20,125 nt of DNA from a virus. Position 1 is the first letter of the stretch, and every line of letters starts with the position of its first letter. The notes below the pieces were generated by a model that worked only from the letters and a program-made list of their open reading frames with translations, was not told the origin of the DNA and did no database searches. The stretch spans positions 1 to 20,125 of the IMG/VR virus record IMGVR_UViG_3300022684_000027; one strand, given 5' to 3'. Positions 4,330-13,877 of the stretch are shown here, one piece after another. A program made the translations under genes and the position numbers.

Positions 4330-6234
4330 TCACCACAATTTTGGTTTGTCGTCCGGCCTGGCCGAACGGTTTTTAGGCGCCTCGTCCTTTTCTTCTTTCG
4401 GTTTCCAGAACCGCACCTGCATGATTTCGGCGGCGCAGTTATTCAGCACCCCGCAGTCCCATAAATGGTTGGGCGCATTCGGGCGGCAGTCCCAGTCGCC
4501 CTTGTCGTTGACGTATTCCGACGTGTAGTGCGCGGCGTAGTCCAGCGGCAGATCGCTCGGCATGCGGACGCTGCCCGGATCGCCCAGCTGCACGGCCATG
4601 GCCGCCGCCAGCTGGTCCTTGAAATACTTGGTGTTCACCCGCACCAGGTTCAGGCCGCCGGGGATGGGTTTTTTGCTGTTGGGGTAGTTTTCGATGCGCG
4701 AATAGGCATACGGCTGGTTCATGGTGCGCTCGCCCTTGGTGGGCAGCACCTTGCCCGGGTGCTGGCGGCACCAGTCGTAGACCTCGGCCGTGCGGTGGCC
4801 CATGGCGTCGATCAGCCCACAGCGCACCAGGTAGGGGTTGCCATCGGCGTCCGCATAGGCGTCCGACCACAGCACTTGCTCCAGCCCTTCCAGCGTGGTC
4901 GCAAAGCCGCAGCGGATCACCCACTGGTCCCGCGTCAGCCCCCAGCCGTGGGCCACGATTTTAAACCAGACGCCGTCGTCCTGGGTGTCGGCCCCGAAGG
5001 TGAGGCAGCTCACCTGGCCGCCGCCCGGCACGCGCCCCATGGGGCGGTCTTCGCACAGCGCCATGATGGTGGACTCCAGCCGCTCCACCTGGTAGGCCAC
5101 CCAGGGCTCCGCGGCGTAGCCGTTCTGGAAGTCCTTCAACTTGGTTTTGTCCGGGCGTCCGCCGGGCGGGTTGGCCGCAAACCAGGCCGCCATCACTTCC
5201 GACAGGCTGACGAAGGGGCTCAGCCAGCTGGGGATCTGAAACGCGATCGAGGCCGGGTTGAAGGCCGCCAGCCAGGCCGCCATGACGATGCCCTTTTCAC
5301 TCTCGCGCCACTGGCCGGCGCGCACGGCCGCGTCCCGTTGGGCGTCGTCCCATCGGGCGGGGCATTTTGCGCAATCGTACCAGGCCAGATGCTCGGCCTT
5401 GATCTGCTTGGGATCGCGCCGGCCGTCCGGCACCCGGATGCGGGTCAGCTCCATCACCTGCCAGCCGCCGCAGGCCGGGCACTGCACCCAGTAGACGAAA
5501 CGCACCTGGGCTTCCTGGTAGGCCTGCCAGATGGGGCCCTCCTCGATGGTGGGGGTGGACACCAGCCACATCTTGCGGCGACCCTTGTAGGTGGTCATGC
5601 GCTTCCTGGCCAGCTCGATCGGGCCGGTCTCCTTTTTGCCCGTGGTGGCCGGGTATTTGTCCACCTCGTCCAGCACCACTTTGCCGATCGGTTTGTTGGC
5701 CAGGCGCGCGGCGGAGTTGGCCCAGGCGAAATAGATGGCCATGTGGGTCAGGTTGATGCGGTTGACGGACATATCGTCGTCGTAGCCCGTGGTGTATTCC
5801 AGCAAGCGGCGGCTGGAGGTGATCATGGGCTGCACGCGGTCCTTGCTGTTTTCCTTGCTGGTCAGCTCGTCCGGGTAGACGTAGAGCACGTCCGCCGGGT
5901 CGCGGTCGATGGCGTAGCCCACGCAGTTGTTGACCCCCTCGGACTTTCCCACCTGGGGAGTCGCCACCAGCACGATCTCTTCCACCGAGCGGTGGTAGCT
6001 GGCGTCCATCACGCCGGCCAGATAGGGCGTGGTTCGATTCCTCCAGCGCCCCGGTATGGCGGACTTCGTCACCACCCGGTGACGCTCGGCCCACTTCGAG
6101 GGCGGGATCGGCCGCCGCTTTTTAAGCCGCTTTTTCTCCCCCCGCGTCAGCCGGTAATGGTACGACGTCACCTGCCCGCGCAGATCCGGCGGCAGGTAGG
6201 TGGCGGGCAGGGTGGTTTTGGTTTGGAAGTACAT
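4330..6234 (-). CDS. Terminase large subunit, GpA family
   Basis: This 634-residue protein is the packaging motor and DNA-cutting enzyme. Visible parts are a variant Walker A ATPQVGKS (residues 91-98), Walker B VVLDE (186-190), the STPT coupling motif (226-229), a zinc-binding pair of CPxC motifs (C252/C255 and C288/C291), and the nuclease domain with GADTQDDG (414-421) and LIDAMGHRTAEVYDWC (474-489). Length and order match lambda gpA and pfam Terminase_GpA. The ATG overlaps the TGA of the upstream 53-residue membrane protein as TGATG, and GAGAGG lies just upstream, so translation is probably coupled. The C-terminal tail is charged, as expected for portal docking. Confidence 0.95.
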   Translation of the reverse strand: MYFQTKTTLPATYLPPDLRGQVTSYHYRLTRGEKKRLKKRRPIPPSKWAERHRVVTKSAIPGRWRNRTTPYLAGVMDASYHRSVEEIVLVATPQVGKSEGVNNCVGYAIDRDPADVLYVYPDELTSKENSKDRVQPMITSSRRLLEYTTGYDDDMSVNRINLTHMAIYFAWANSAARLANKPIGKVVLDEVDKYPATTGKKETGPIELARKRMTTYKGRRKMWLVSTPTIEEGPIWQAYQEAQVRFVYWVQCPACGGWQVMELTRIRVPDGRRDPKQIKAEHLAWYDCAKCPARWDDAQRDAAVRAGQWRESEKGIVMAAWLAAFNPASIAFQIPSWLSPFVSLSEVMAAWFAANPPGGRPDKTKLKDFQNGYAAEPWVAYQVERLESTIMALCEDRPMGRVPGGGQVSCLTFGADTQDDGVWFKIVAHGWGLTRDQWVIRCGFATTLEGLEQVLWSDAYADADGNPYLVRCGLIDAMGHRTAEVYDWCRQHPGKVLPTKGERTMNQPYAYSRIENYPNSKKPIPGGLNLVRVNTKYFKDQLAAAMAVQLGDPGSVRMPSDLPLDYAAHYTSEYVNDKGDWDCRPNAPNHLWDCGVLNNCAAEIMQVRFWKPKEEKDEAPKNRSARPDDKPKLW

Positions 6235-9082: not shown

Positions 9083-10588
9083 TTATGCCGCCATTAGCGA
9101 CAACCCGAGGTTATTAGCCGTGCGCACCGGTACCGAGTTGCCGATCTGTTTCACGATGTCCGAGTTCGTGCCGGCAAAGCGGTAGTCATTTGGAAAGCTG
9201 TGCGCAGCGGCCAGCTCTTTCGGCGTCAGCATCCGGAAGAGGATGTCTATGAGATATCGCTGGCCACCGATGTCCACAACCATCGGACGCACCAGGCCGA
9301 AACGGTCATCTGTTGTGACTGTGTCGATCGGTTGATCCATGGGAGTAAAACGGCCCGTGCCGTAGTATTTGACGACGAACGGCTGAACCACGCACTGTTC
9401 CGCTTTCGACACCAGCGTCGACAAAGGCTCGCCGGCTGATCTGATGCGGTTTGATCCTCCGGTCTGGCCGGTGGCCATAACGAACGGCTCGATCAGCGCA
9501 TGGGCGCCGGTGGCCGTAATCGTCGGCAAACCATAATCCACCGTCCGGACAGCGCCGCGGGCGTCCTGCGGCAGGATCAGCGGCTTAATCAACCCGATCC
9601 GGTTGGATGTATCCAGAGTGGACAATGGCTGATCAATAGACTGAACCCGGCCGCCATCGTTGAACCGGACCATAAAAGGCTGGCAGAGGCCAACGTGCGT
9701 ACCGCCAGCTGTTATTGCCGGCATAGGGTTGTCGACGTTGCCAGTGGTGCCGGTACCACGCAGCAGCACAAGAAACGGATCGGCCCACTCACCCCAAAAT
9801 CGTTCGACGCCGGCGGCGATTCTTTTCAGCGTGTTCTCGGCCAGCGGGCGCTTGATACGCAGCCCGGACGCCCGGACGTCATCACGGGTCAGGAAAATGC
9901 TGTGGCCAGGGTTGTTCCAATCAATAATATCCTGTGCAGGTCGCCACGGTTGCACAATCTGGCCGAAGATGTCAGCGCGCGAATCCCGGCCATTGGTCGG
10001 TGTCGGGAATGCAACCCGTTTCCGGCCCCGGCGGGCCATCAGGAAAAAGCGCCTCCGGGTGGTAGCGTCGCCATAGTCGGCGCAGTTCAACACCTGCCAA
10101 TCGACCGAATAGGACAGGGACCGGAGCGCATTGACGAACGCATGGAAGGTTTTGCCACGCATGGATTTGATGGGTTTGCCATTTTCATCCAGTGGCCCCC
10201 ATCCGGCAAACTCCGGCACATTCTCGATCAACAGGTTGCGGACGTATAGCTCCTGGCACCAGTGCAGCACATGCCAGGCACTGGCACGGGACTGGTCGCA
10301 GCGGGGCTTGCCACCCCGGGCATTGCTGTGGTGGGTGCATTCCGGACTGGCAACCAGTAGATCGAGTTTCCCGCCCGGCACGGCCGTGCTGGGCTTGAGC
10401 CCCTCAAGGCTGGTGCACAGGTGCTCGGCCCAGGGATGATTCGCCGCGTGCGTCTCAATGGCCGTCTCCCAGTGGTTGACCGCTGTCAGCTTTAGATCGC
10501 ACCCCAGCGCTTCGGCCGCCATACGCAACCCAGTCGACGTCCCGCCAGCACCACAGAAAAGATCAGCTGCATGGATTATTTTTCCCAT
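9083..10588 (-). CDS. DNA C5-cytosine methyltransferase with repeat-built recognition region
   Basis: This 501-residue enzyme transfers a methyl group from S-adenosylmethionine to carbon 5 of cytosine in DNA. Motif I is DLFCGAGGTSTGL (9-21). Motif IV is SPECTHHSNARG, with catalytic Cys84 preceded by Glu rather than the usual Pro. Motif VI is IENVPEF (121-127), motif VIII ATTRRRFFLMARRG (175-188), and motif X GNSVPVRTANNL (483-494). Between VIII and X, residues 271-434 are five imperfect repeats of 32-35 residues, each beginning PF/PL/PM and containing PLST- or PTIT-like turns. No restriction gene is adjacent, so this is an orphan methyltransferase, probably for evading host restriction. ATG 10588 has GAGGG 7 nt upstream. 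The stop is 18 nt before the DUF5131 start. Confidence 0.93.
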   Translation of the reverse strand: MGKIIHAADLFCGAGGTSTGLRMAAEALGCDLKLTAVNHWETAIETHAANHPWAEHLCTSLEGLKPSTAVPGGKLDLLVASPECTHHSNARGGKPRCDQSRASAWHVLHWCQELYVRNLLIENVPEFAGWGPLDENGKPIKSMRGKTFHAFVNALRSLSYSVDWQVLNCADYGDATTRRRFFLMARRGRKRVAFPTPTNGRDSRADIFGQIVQPWRPAQDIIDWNNPGHSIFLTRDDVRASGLRIKRPLAENTLKRIAAGVERFWGEWADPFLVLLRGTGTTGNVDNPMPAITAGGTHVGLCQPFMVRFNDGGRVQSIDQPLSTLDTSNRIGLIKPLILPQDARGAVRTVDYGLPTITATGAHALIEPFVMATGQTGGSNRIRSAGEPLSTLVSKAEQCVVQPFVVKYYGTGRFTPMDQPIDTVTTDDRFGLVRPMVVDIGGQRYLIDILFRMLTPKELAAAHSFPNDYRFAGTNSDIVKQIGNSVPVRTANNLGLSLMAA

Positions 10589-12069: not shown

Positions 12070-12281
12070 GGTCCTGTTGGTCCTGCCCTCGGTCCTGGCC
12101 TTTTTTATAAGGACTTTAATACTTTATAATTTTTCCAGGACTATTATCTAAATATAAATTTCTTGATAAGTTTTATATGGTCCAGAAGCTAAAAACACGT
12201 CTCCCTCTCAATGGTCCTATGGTCCATTTTCCTGTTAATTTAATATGTTAAATATACAAACCATCTGGACCATTAGGACCA
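12070..12281. other. Repeat-rich AT-rich gap, candidate replication origin or operator array
   Basis: These 212 non-coding bases contain eight copies of GGTCC or its complement GGACC: plus-strand GGTCC at 12070, 12079, 12091, 12179, 12213 and 12221, and GGACC at 12267 and 12276. Two AGGACT near-copies lie around 12110 and 12137. Copies at 12211-12226 and 12266-12282 form a nearly perfect inverted repeat (one extra base) around a 39-nt AT-rich loop. The middle (12101-12180) is very AT-rich. Iteron-like sites beside an AT-rich melting region and flanked by helicase and primase genes fit a phage origin. A regulator array or an RNA structure are alternatives. No ORF or convincing promoter is seen. 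Confidence 0.55.
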
Positions 12282-13877
12282 TCACCACACATCACCCCCA
12301 TATTGGTCTGGCAGAATCTCCCGCATGACCCGCAGATCCAGCGCCAGACCGAAATATTTATAGAGCCCGCCGACCTTGTCGTGCCGGAAGCGCTCGCGCA
12401 CGTAGCTGCCGAACTTCTTTTGCTTGGGAGGAAAATTCCCGACGAACTTCTTCCACCAGGCCGTGAAGGCGTCATAGAGATCCGAGGCCCCGATCTGGAA
12501 CTCGGTCTCGTCGCCCGTGCGGCAGCAAAACTCGATGAAAGCCCCCAGGTTATCCTCGCCGGACTTCCATTTCTGGGTTTCCTCCACCACCCGTGGCGGC
12601 ATCATCAGGCCGTCCCGCTGCCACTTGAGGCAGCCCTCCACCATCCAGGCCAGGATTCCGGGTGCCTCTTCCTGCAATTTTTGTTGCAGCATCGGGTCGG
12701 CCACGCGCTCGTTATCCGCCTTGGGCTCGCTATTGCGCAGGAAGCGCACCAGAAACGGGATGTTGATCACCCGCTCCCAGAACGCCTGGTCCTGCGAGTC
12801 GGCGTGGGGCTTGAAGTTGGACAGCAGAAAAAGGGTGTGGCTGGGGGCAAAGGTGATGGGGTATTTGTCGTGCGGCGACCGGCCGGTGAGCGAGTCGGCC
12901 CCGGTCAGCCATTTGCACTTGGCCGCGCTTACCTTGGCCCCGTCCTCGGTCTCGCTGGCCCAGGCAATCCGCAGGCCGCGCATGGCCACGATGTCCGGCG
13001 TTGGCGCCGAGCTGTTGGTGATCTTGTAGCTGGCCAGCAGCATTTCGGATGGGATCGGGCCGGCCAGCGGCCCCAGCACGGTCTTGATGGCTTCCATCTC
13101 GGTGCCCTTGCCGTTGCGGCCGCCGGGTCCGGTGAACACCGGGAAAATGTGTTCATACACCGCGCCGACGATGGCGCAACCATACAGCCGCTGCATGAAC
13201 TCCACCACCAGCTCGTCCCGCGAGTGGATTTCCAGCAGGGCCTCTTCCCATGTTGGCCGCGGTGCATCGATGCCGCGCCACTCCGTCGGCGCAGCCTTCA
13301 ACAGAAAATCGTCCGGTTGTCCTGGCCGGCTCTCACCGGTCTTTAGATCCACGACACAATTCGGACAGGCCAAGAGCCACGGCTGCCGGTCGATCTCGTC
13401 CCCATGAATGGCCATGGGGTTTTTTGAGGTGTGCGCCCATTTCGCGCACTGGGTGCGGCGCTGATCGCCGCGCAGGTCCCACACGCGCTTTGACAGCTTC
13501 CGCTCGCGCGATTCGTGGTATTTCTGGAGCTCCTTGTCGTCCTTCGACTCCTGGGCCTTTTTGCGCTCCAGGTCGGCCGCCGCCTGGTAGCGCTTGACGA
13601 CCTCCTCCACGGCCGCGAAGGCCCCGTCCATCGTGTCCAACTCCCAATGGTGGCCGGCCCAGCGCAGCCAGCAGTCCATCGATTTGCAGAAAACAAACTT
13701 GCCGGCGTTGATGCGCTTGTACAATTCGCCGTCACCCAGCTGGTTGGCCTGGATGCAGCTCCACACGAAATTATGGTCCGGACCACTGTCTCCGGGACCG
13801 CTGCCGGTTTTGTTCTCCTCGGCCACACGCGACTCCACCTGGGCCCGGATATCCTCGATCTTGACCAGTTTTTCCAT
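12282..13877 (-). CDS. SF3 replicative helicase, phage P4/D5-like
   Basis: The 531-residue protein (from ATG 13877; TTG 13904 is an in-frame alternative) is a superfamily-3 DNA helicase of the P4 alpha/poxvirus D5 type. The N-terminal half carries D5_N-like sequence (LACPNCVVDLKTGESRPGQP). The AAA+ core has Walker A GPGGRNGKGT (250-259), Walker B IAWASETE (304-311) and SF3 motif C LFLLSNFKP (349-357), then an arginine-finger region FWERVINIPF. The C-terminal 100 residues (DLYDAFTAWWKKF and on) form a winged-helix-like primase/helicase tail. Unlike P4 alpha it lacks a primase domain, which is supplied by the next gene. AGGA precedes the ATG by 5 nt. Its stop lies within the last GGACC repeat. 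Confidence 0.92.
   Translation of the reverse strand: MEKLVKIEDIRAQVESRVAEENKTGSGPGDSGPDHNFVWSCIQANQLGDGELYKRINAGKFVFCKSMDCWLRWAGHHWELDTMDGAFAAVEEVVKRYQAAADLERKKAQESKDDKELQKYHESRERKLSKRVWDLRGDQRRTQCAKWAHTSKNPMAIHGDEIDRQPWLLACPNCVVDLKTGESRPGQPDDFLLKAAPTEWRGIDAPRPTWEEALLEIHSRDELVVEFMQRLYGCAIVGAVYEHIFPVFTGPGGRNGKGTEMEAIKTVLGPLAGPIPSEMLLASYKITNSSAPTPDIVAMRGLRIAWASETEDGAKVSAAKCKWLTGADSLTGRSPHDKYPITFAPSHTLFLLSNFKPHADSQDQAFWERVINIPFLVRFLRNSEPKADNERVADPMLQQKLQEEAPGILAWMVEGCLKWQRDGLMMPPRVVEETQKWKSGEDNLGAFIEFCCRTGDETEFQIGASDLYDAFTAWWKKFVGNFPPKQKKFGSYVRERFRHDKVGGLYKYFGLALDLRVMREILPDQYGGDVW

Follow-up and report, generated by a model that had tools for sequence, protein, structure and literature searches.

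The Rep protein of Staphylococcus aureus pathogenicity islands (SaPIs) recognises an iteron origin directly downstream of rep, and Cch2 of the staphylococcal cassette chromosome mec (SCCmec), likewise a helicase of the D5 type, uses its C-terminal domain to bind 5-nt iterons that lie downstream of its gene (PMC7581432). Origins of phage-inducible chromosomal islands (PICIs) contain an AT-rich region flanked by two iteron sets (PMC6092414), and those of SaPIs are said to mirror simian virus 40, with opposed repeats on which two hexamers are believed to be loaded head to head (PMC9894130). In the crenarchaeal plasmid pRN1 the origin lies in the stretch immediately past the replication protein gene (PMC4234260). 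Here we describe a comparable arrangement in a phage, the linear IMG/VR virus record IMGVR_UViG_3300022684_000027, whose 20,125 bp form the window that was analysed. Between a D5/SF3-type helicase gene and a DnaG-type primase gene of this window lies a 212-bp spacer filled with short GGTCC/GGACC sites, which is very probably the replication origin of the phage (a probability of about 0.84). This reading is based on the dense and oriented short sites, the AT-rich stretches, the fixed place right after the helicase gene and the family-wide conservation of the arrangement.

The site array in the spacer and in close relatives

The spacer holds exact GGTCC cores at 12070, 12079, 12091, 12179, 12213 and 12221 and exact GGACC cores at 12267 and 12276 (Table 1). 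These eight GGWCC cores in 213 bp compare with a mean of 0.43 and a maximum of 4 in dinucleotide shuffles of the segment, none of 5000 shuffles reaching eight. When any 5-mer is allowed, 78 of 5000 shuffles contain some word eight times; the specific GC-rich word therefore matters. Two stretches reach 80–83% AT, against 40% for the whole window, and a long inverted repeat is formed by ATGGTCCTATGGTCCA (12211–12226) and the complement of TGGACCATTAGGACCAT (12266–12282). Thus, the eight copies, the AT-rich centre and the near-perfect inverted repeat that a sequence-only reading of this DNA had described were all recovered, the last with a 1-nt gap. Counted from the helicase stop codon in the helicase sense, the sites lie at −1 and 8 (inverted), 56 and 64 (forward), 98 (forward) and 185, 197 and 206 (forward), and a degenerate inverted pair reading AGTCCT in this sense (window 12137 and 12110) stands between sites 98 and 185. 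The sequence-only reading had overlooked this pair, which completes the four-block layout of the relatives, as well as the entry of the final site into the primase start codon, where the minus strand reads AGGACC-ATG.

If the spacer is an origin, relatives that share these replication genes should retain the repeats. The repeats, whose absence from such relatives had been named as one finding that would tell against an origin, are present in L003 and L004 (same contig as L002/L007), in which the helicases are 99% and the primases 84–91% identical. In a three-way comparison of the window with these two loci, identical bases make up 46 of 48 positions within sites and 168 of 207 outside them. 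The same loci bear on the possibility that the GGWCC clusters are targets of the phage's own cytosine methyltransferase and serve methylation control. A C5 methylase gene follows the primase gene directly, and GGWCC could be a word that such an enzyme recognises. L003 and L004 have no methylase gene, however, and keep the array, which is therefore not tied to the methylase, and most relatives use words other than GGWCC. We therefore rejected this explanation as extremely improbable. The methylase gene itself was probably gained or lost recently.

A minus-strand segment that separates block 2 from the central site, TTGAGAGGGAGACGTGTTTTTAG (window ~12188–12210), is unchanged in the three close relatives while the neighbouring bases vary. 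Its conservation is not accounted for by the iterons.

Constant layout and changing word among distant relatives

Contig profile scans with an alignment of the window and its near and distant relatives gathered ~100 loci (L numbers), while a single-protein scan gave none. Judged from these sequences, dozens of distantly related phages share the layout and the place of the array while the repeated word changes. Comparison of the spacer across related phages, as the sequence-only reading had proposed, revealed lineage-specific words in a common layout in most of ~80 non-redundant relatives. The helicase stop lies 200–500 bp from the primase start in most relatives, and in the window and its relatives the arrays begin at the helicase stop codon. 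In L008, whose helicase is 41% identical, the corresponding spacer contains TGGACGAT four times. A 7-mer is repeated beyond shuffles at p ≤ 0.05 in 79 of 93 distinct downstream regions and at the test floor of 0.005 in 65, these being uncorrected single tests of which ~5 of 93 are expected to pass at 0.05; 52 of the 93 lie above the 99% quantile obtained with control segments of equal length taken from these loci. The lineage words are GGACCAT, TGGACGAT, TGGAAGATT, GGAGGAT, GGAGGGTT, GGATAGTT and GGACAGTT, most of which match GGAnn(A/G/T)T, and the density of this pattern is 20.8/kb in spacers versus 5.7/kb in helicase coding sequence.

The common layout comprises head-to-tail sites spaced by ~8–12 bp and grouped into blocks that face in opposite directions. 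Among non-redundant relatives, 62 of 63 neighbouring pairs 8 bp apart have the same orientation, and 141 of 179 neighbours 23–90 bp apart are opposed. Over all arrays, 246 of 477 sites pair mirror-symmetrically, compared with a mean of 209 and a maximum of 229 in 300 label shuffles, and the mirror is near-perfect in L065 (12 of 12 sites) and L035 (12 of 13). Such inverted blocks could also act as RNA, as a hairpin or protein-binding leader in the helicase–primase transcript (an attenuator, a processing site or the target of a GGA-binding translational regulator). GGA words do stand ahead of the primase start codon, and the transcript strand of the window spacer folds better than shuffles (z −2.6, 3/200), chiefly by pairing block 1 with block 2. 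However, inverted DNA arrays all fold, the block 1/2 hairpin is impossible in L038, where both blocks share an orientation, and the fixed 8–12 bp spacing of same-orientation sites better suits a DNA-bound protein. A terminator scan found none on the minus strand and one weak plus-strand match outside the spacer, and an Rfam search of the spacer matched no family. We consider an RNA element very unlikely.

Arrays likewise follow homologous helicases in described phages and plasmids. Lactobacillus phage phi-adh (AJ131519) has a deposited rep_origin at 13084–13469, directly after its D5-type primase/helicase gene, that holds TGTATAGTT/TGTAGGGTT words in oriented blocks, and arrays are also found in Enterococcus phage 4995_2, Streptococcus phage Javan618 and Lactobacillus phage CL2. 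The natural plasmids pWc (L125; Waddlia, a chlamydia relative) and pSINAC02 (L124; Singulisphaera, a planctomycete) carry the same helicase-then-array unit. In mycobacteriophage Findley the helicase stop is overlapped by the next gene, hence no such spacer exists, and in a Syntrophotalea plasmid the helicase match is fragmented and stops at the record end. The persistence of the repeats in relatives and the rep_origin annotated at the equivalent place of a homologous phage support the candidate origin that the sequence-only reading had put forward.

These data also speak to a role of the sites as operators of a transcription factor, such as a phage repressor or the helicase itself, that would control a primase promoter while replication begins elsewhere. 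The sites lie directly upstream of the primase gene, with the last one entering its start codon, and the phage encodes helix-turn-helix (HTH) and CopG-like regulators. However, a scan for sigma-70-like promoters found none in the spacer, and arrays of 4–12 sites that span the entire spacer from the helicase stop, and that are retained in L035 and L111 though the primase gene is much more distant, exceed the needs of an operator. Moreover, phi-adh annotates the equivalent place as an origin. Operators without an origin are thus unlikely, and autoregulation by the initiator could be compatible with origin function.

Some arrays have features of their own. The 264-bp spacer of L103 combines two words in one array, AGGACC(A/T)T in the outer blocks and GGACGAT in the inner blocks, and looks as if caught between two specificities. 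In L030 (spacer 5437–6156) and L028, a ~193-bp four-site array is tandemly duplicated (sites 7, 25, 96, 114 and 200, 218, 289, 307); the near-identical L029 and L032 have a single copy, and the duplication is either real or an assembly effect. A long inverted repeat bounded by TGGACGAT sites crosses the array centre in L008 (6690–6781, with 28-nt arms) and in the L061 spacer. Of 68 spacers, 14 have alternating purine-pyrimidine GC runs (e.g. GCGCGCGCGT) close to the array centre, compared with 40 of 617 control segments; examples are L024, L025, L035, L065, L106 and L113, at ~+113 to +165.

The predicted helicase winged helix and the choice of word

The AlphaFold2 (AF2) model of the helicase (predicted local distance difference test score, pLDDT, 87) has a C-terminal winged helix at ~470–522 with a recognition helix at 495–505. 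Foldseek and profile searches matched African swine fever virus (ASFV) C962R and pox D5/E5; the closest solved relatives by sequence are these proteins and 7ola, which we take to be the structure of SaPI5 Rep. We propose that the helicase would load itself at the origin through the winged helix, as at the SaPI Rep and SCCmec Cch2 origins. The winged helix of the adjoining SF3/D5 helicase would bind the GGWCC sites, so that helicase rings could assemble on the oppositely oriented blocks, open the AT-rich DNA and then unwind bidirectionally, and the primase encoded next door would prime the exposed strands. Because initiator and sites adjoin, they can change jointly, which would explain a varying word in a constant layout.

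The two middle bases of the word received an automatic label in 48 loci. With ATPase identity taken into account, loci that share a label have winged helices of higher identity (coefficient 0.049, null standard deviation 0.008, 0/1000 permutations), and the label hardly predicts N-terminal identity (coefficient 0.003, a point estimate). Columns 495, 496, 501 and 509 are among the top-ranked for tracking the word; ATPase columns such as 266 and 293 are top-ranked too, which signals clade structure. Q495-K/R496 occurs mostly with GGACC and GGACG, and G495-T496 mostly with GGAGG, GGATA and GGATT. Some middle-base labels in the residue-pairing and within-clade tests were set by eye, and automatic labels gave an equal overall result. 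We regard a putative recognition-helix code for the word as a lead rather than a result. A more speculative proposal, with the odds somewhat against it, is that of one origin blueprint with a switchable address, in which a fixed GGA-n-n-(A/G/T)-T frame stands in oriented blocks and the middle bases are read by residues ~495, 496 and 501. Lineages would change address and reader jointly, so that phages, satellites and plasmids would fall into replicon compatibility groups.

Several results weigh against the origin reading and its proposed reader. The link between word and winged helix is partly clade structure, being not significant in the Q495 clade (p 0.19) and marginal within the G495-T496 clade (p 0.037). 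No significant 7-mer repeat was found in 14 of the 93 regions of the relatives, and the array is not significant in the Planctomyces plasmid pPL62-4 (p 0.28) or the Thermaerobacter plasmid (p 0.32). The array of the window itself is not significantly mirror-symmetric (5 of 9 sites, p 0.40), being by itself too short or too degenerate to reach significance.

Gene setting and comparison with known systems

On the minus strand of the window the gene order is helicase, spacer, primase, C5 methylase, a DUF5131 gene and terminase genes, and one strand carries the main genes, from terminase through integrase. Both the large and the small terminase subunit are encoded, with portal- and capsid-like open reading frames to their left (read by eye).

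Table 1. Positions of the array elements and neighbouring genes in the window.
Feature	Position	Strand	Remarks
C5 cytosine methylase gene	9083–10588		Between primase and DUF5131 genes
DnaG-type primase (zinc ribbon, TOPRIM-like), 489 amino acids	10600–12069	−	Zn_Ribbon_Prim E 6e-8; Toprim_2 E 0.001; phrog_849 DNA primase E 1e-34
Entire spacer, candidate replication origin	12070–12281	.	212 bp
Block 4, three GGTCC cores (12070, 12079, 12091)	12070–12095	+	Final site enters primase start codon
AT-rich stretch, candidate unwinding element	12101–12178	.	83% AT
Block 3, two degenerate cores AGGACT (12110, 12137), oriented as block 1	12110–12141	+	Inside AT-rich part; AGGAC positions; location matches block 3 of relatives
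Lone GGTCC core close to array centre	12179–12183	+
Block 2, pair of GGTCC cores at 8-bp spacing	12213–12225	+	Orientation opposed to block 1
Second AT-rich stretch, separating blocks 1 and 2	12227–12266	.	80% AT
Block 1, pair of GGACC cores at 9-bp spacing	12267–12280	+	Immediately past helicase stop codon; kept in L003 and L004
D5_N/SF3-type helicase, putative self-loading initiator, 540 amino acids	12282–13904	−	Pfam D5_N E 1e-23; PHROG primase/helicase families

The comparisons suggest a drift of origin specificity from one phage lineage to another within a layout that is held fixed. They offer a sequence-level rule by which origins could be located in phages, prophages and plasmids that encode D5-type helicases, a large family for most of whose members the records examined give no mapped origin; the origins of pWc and pSINAC02, for instance, could be mapped by the helicase-then-array rule. 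The family also supplies natural initiator/origin pairs for studying DNA choice and self-loading by an SF3 helicase. A search of the open-access full-text literature found no paper describing the family-wide layout, an absence that says little.

The window resembles SaPIs and PICIs in its AAA+/SF3 initiator-type helicase (D5_N; pox D5, C962R and 7ola were matched by profile and by fold), in an array, here a putative origin, directly 3′ of the helicase gene, and in two iteron sets around AT-rich DNA. Iteron binding by the C-terminal domain would be a further likeness, hinted at here indirectly by the modelled winged helix and its association with the word. It differs in being a phage fragment with terminase genes rather than a satellite without structural genes, in placing the candidate origin between separate helicase and DnaG-type primase genes, and in its iteron words. 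The P4 alpha/ori/crr system is alike in its D5/P4-type helicase family and iteron-type recognition, but P4 alpha fuses primase and helicase in one protein, whereas the window has two genes with the candidate origin between them. The label "P4-like" given by the sequence-only reading therefore holds in a broad sense and fails for the gene organisation. Phi-adh shares with the window an oriented short-word array immediately past a D5-type helicase gene; its helicase is only 25% identical and fused to the primase, its word differs, and its rep_origin is an annotation as deposited. In pRN1, an archaeal plasmid, the origin likewise has its place downstream of the gene for the replication protein. 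SCCmec Cch2 matches in being a D5-type helicase whose gene is followed by an intergenic region with short iterons, its putative origin (PMC7581432), but these are just three AAGTG iterons, all direct, and the primase is of the polymerase type and not a TOPRIM primase. By analogy, the window fits the working mode of SaPI, PICI and Cch2 replication, but as a phage in which helicase and primase are split around the putative origin.
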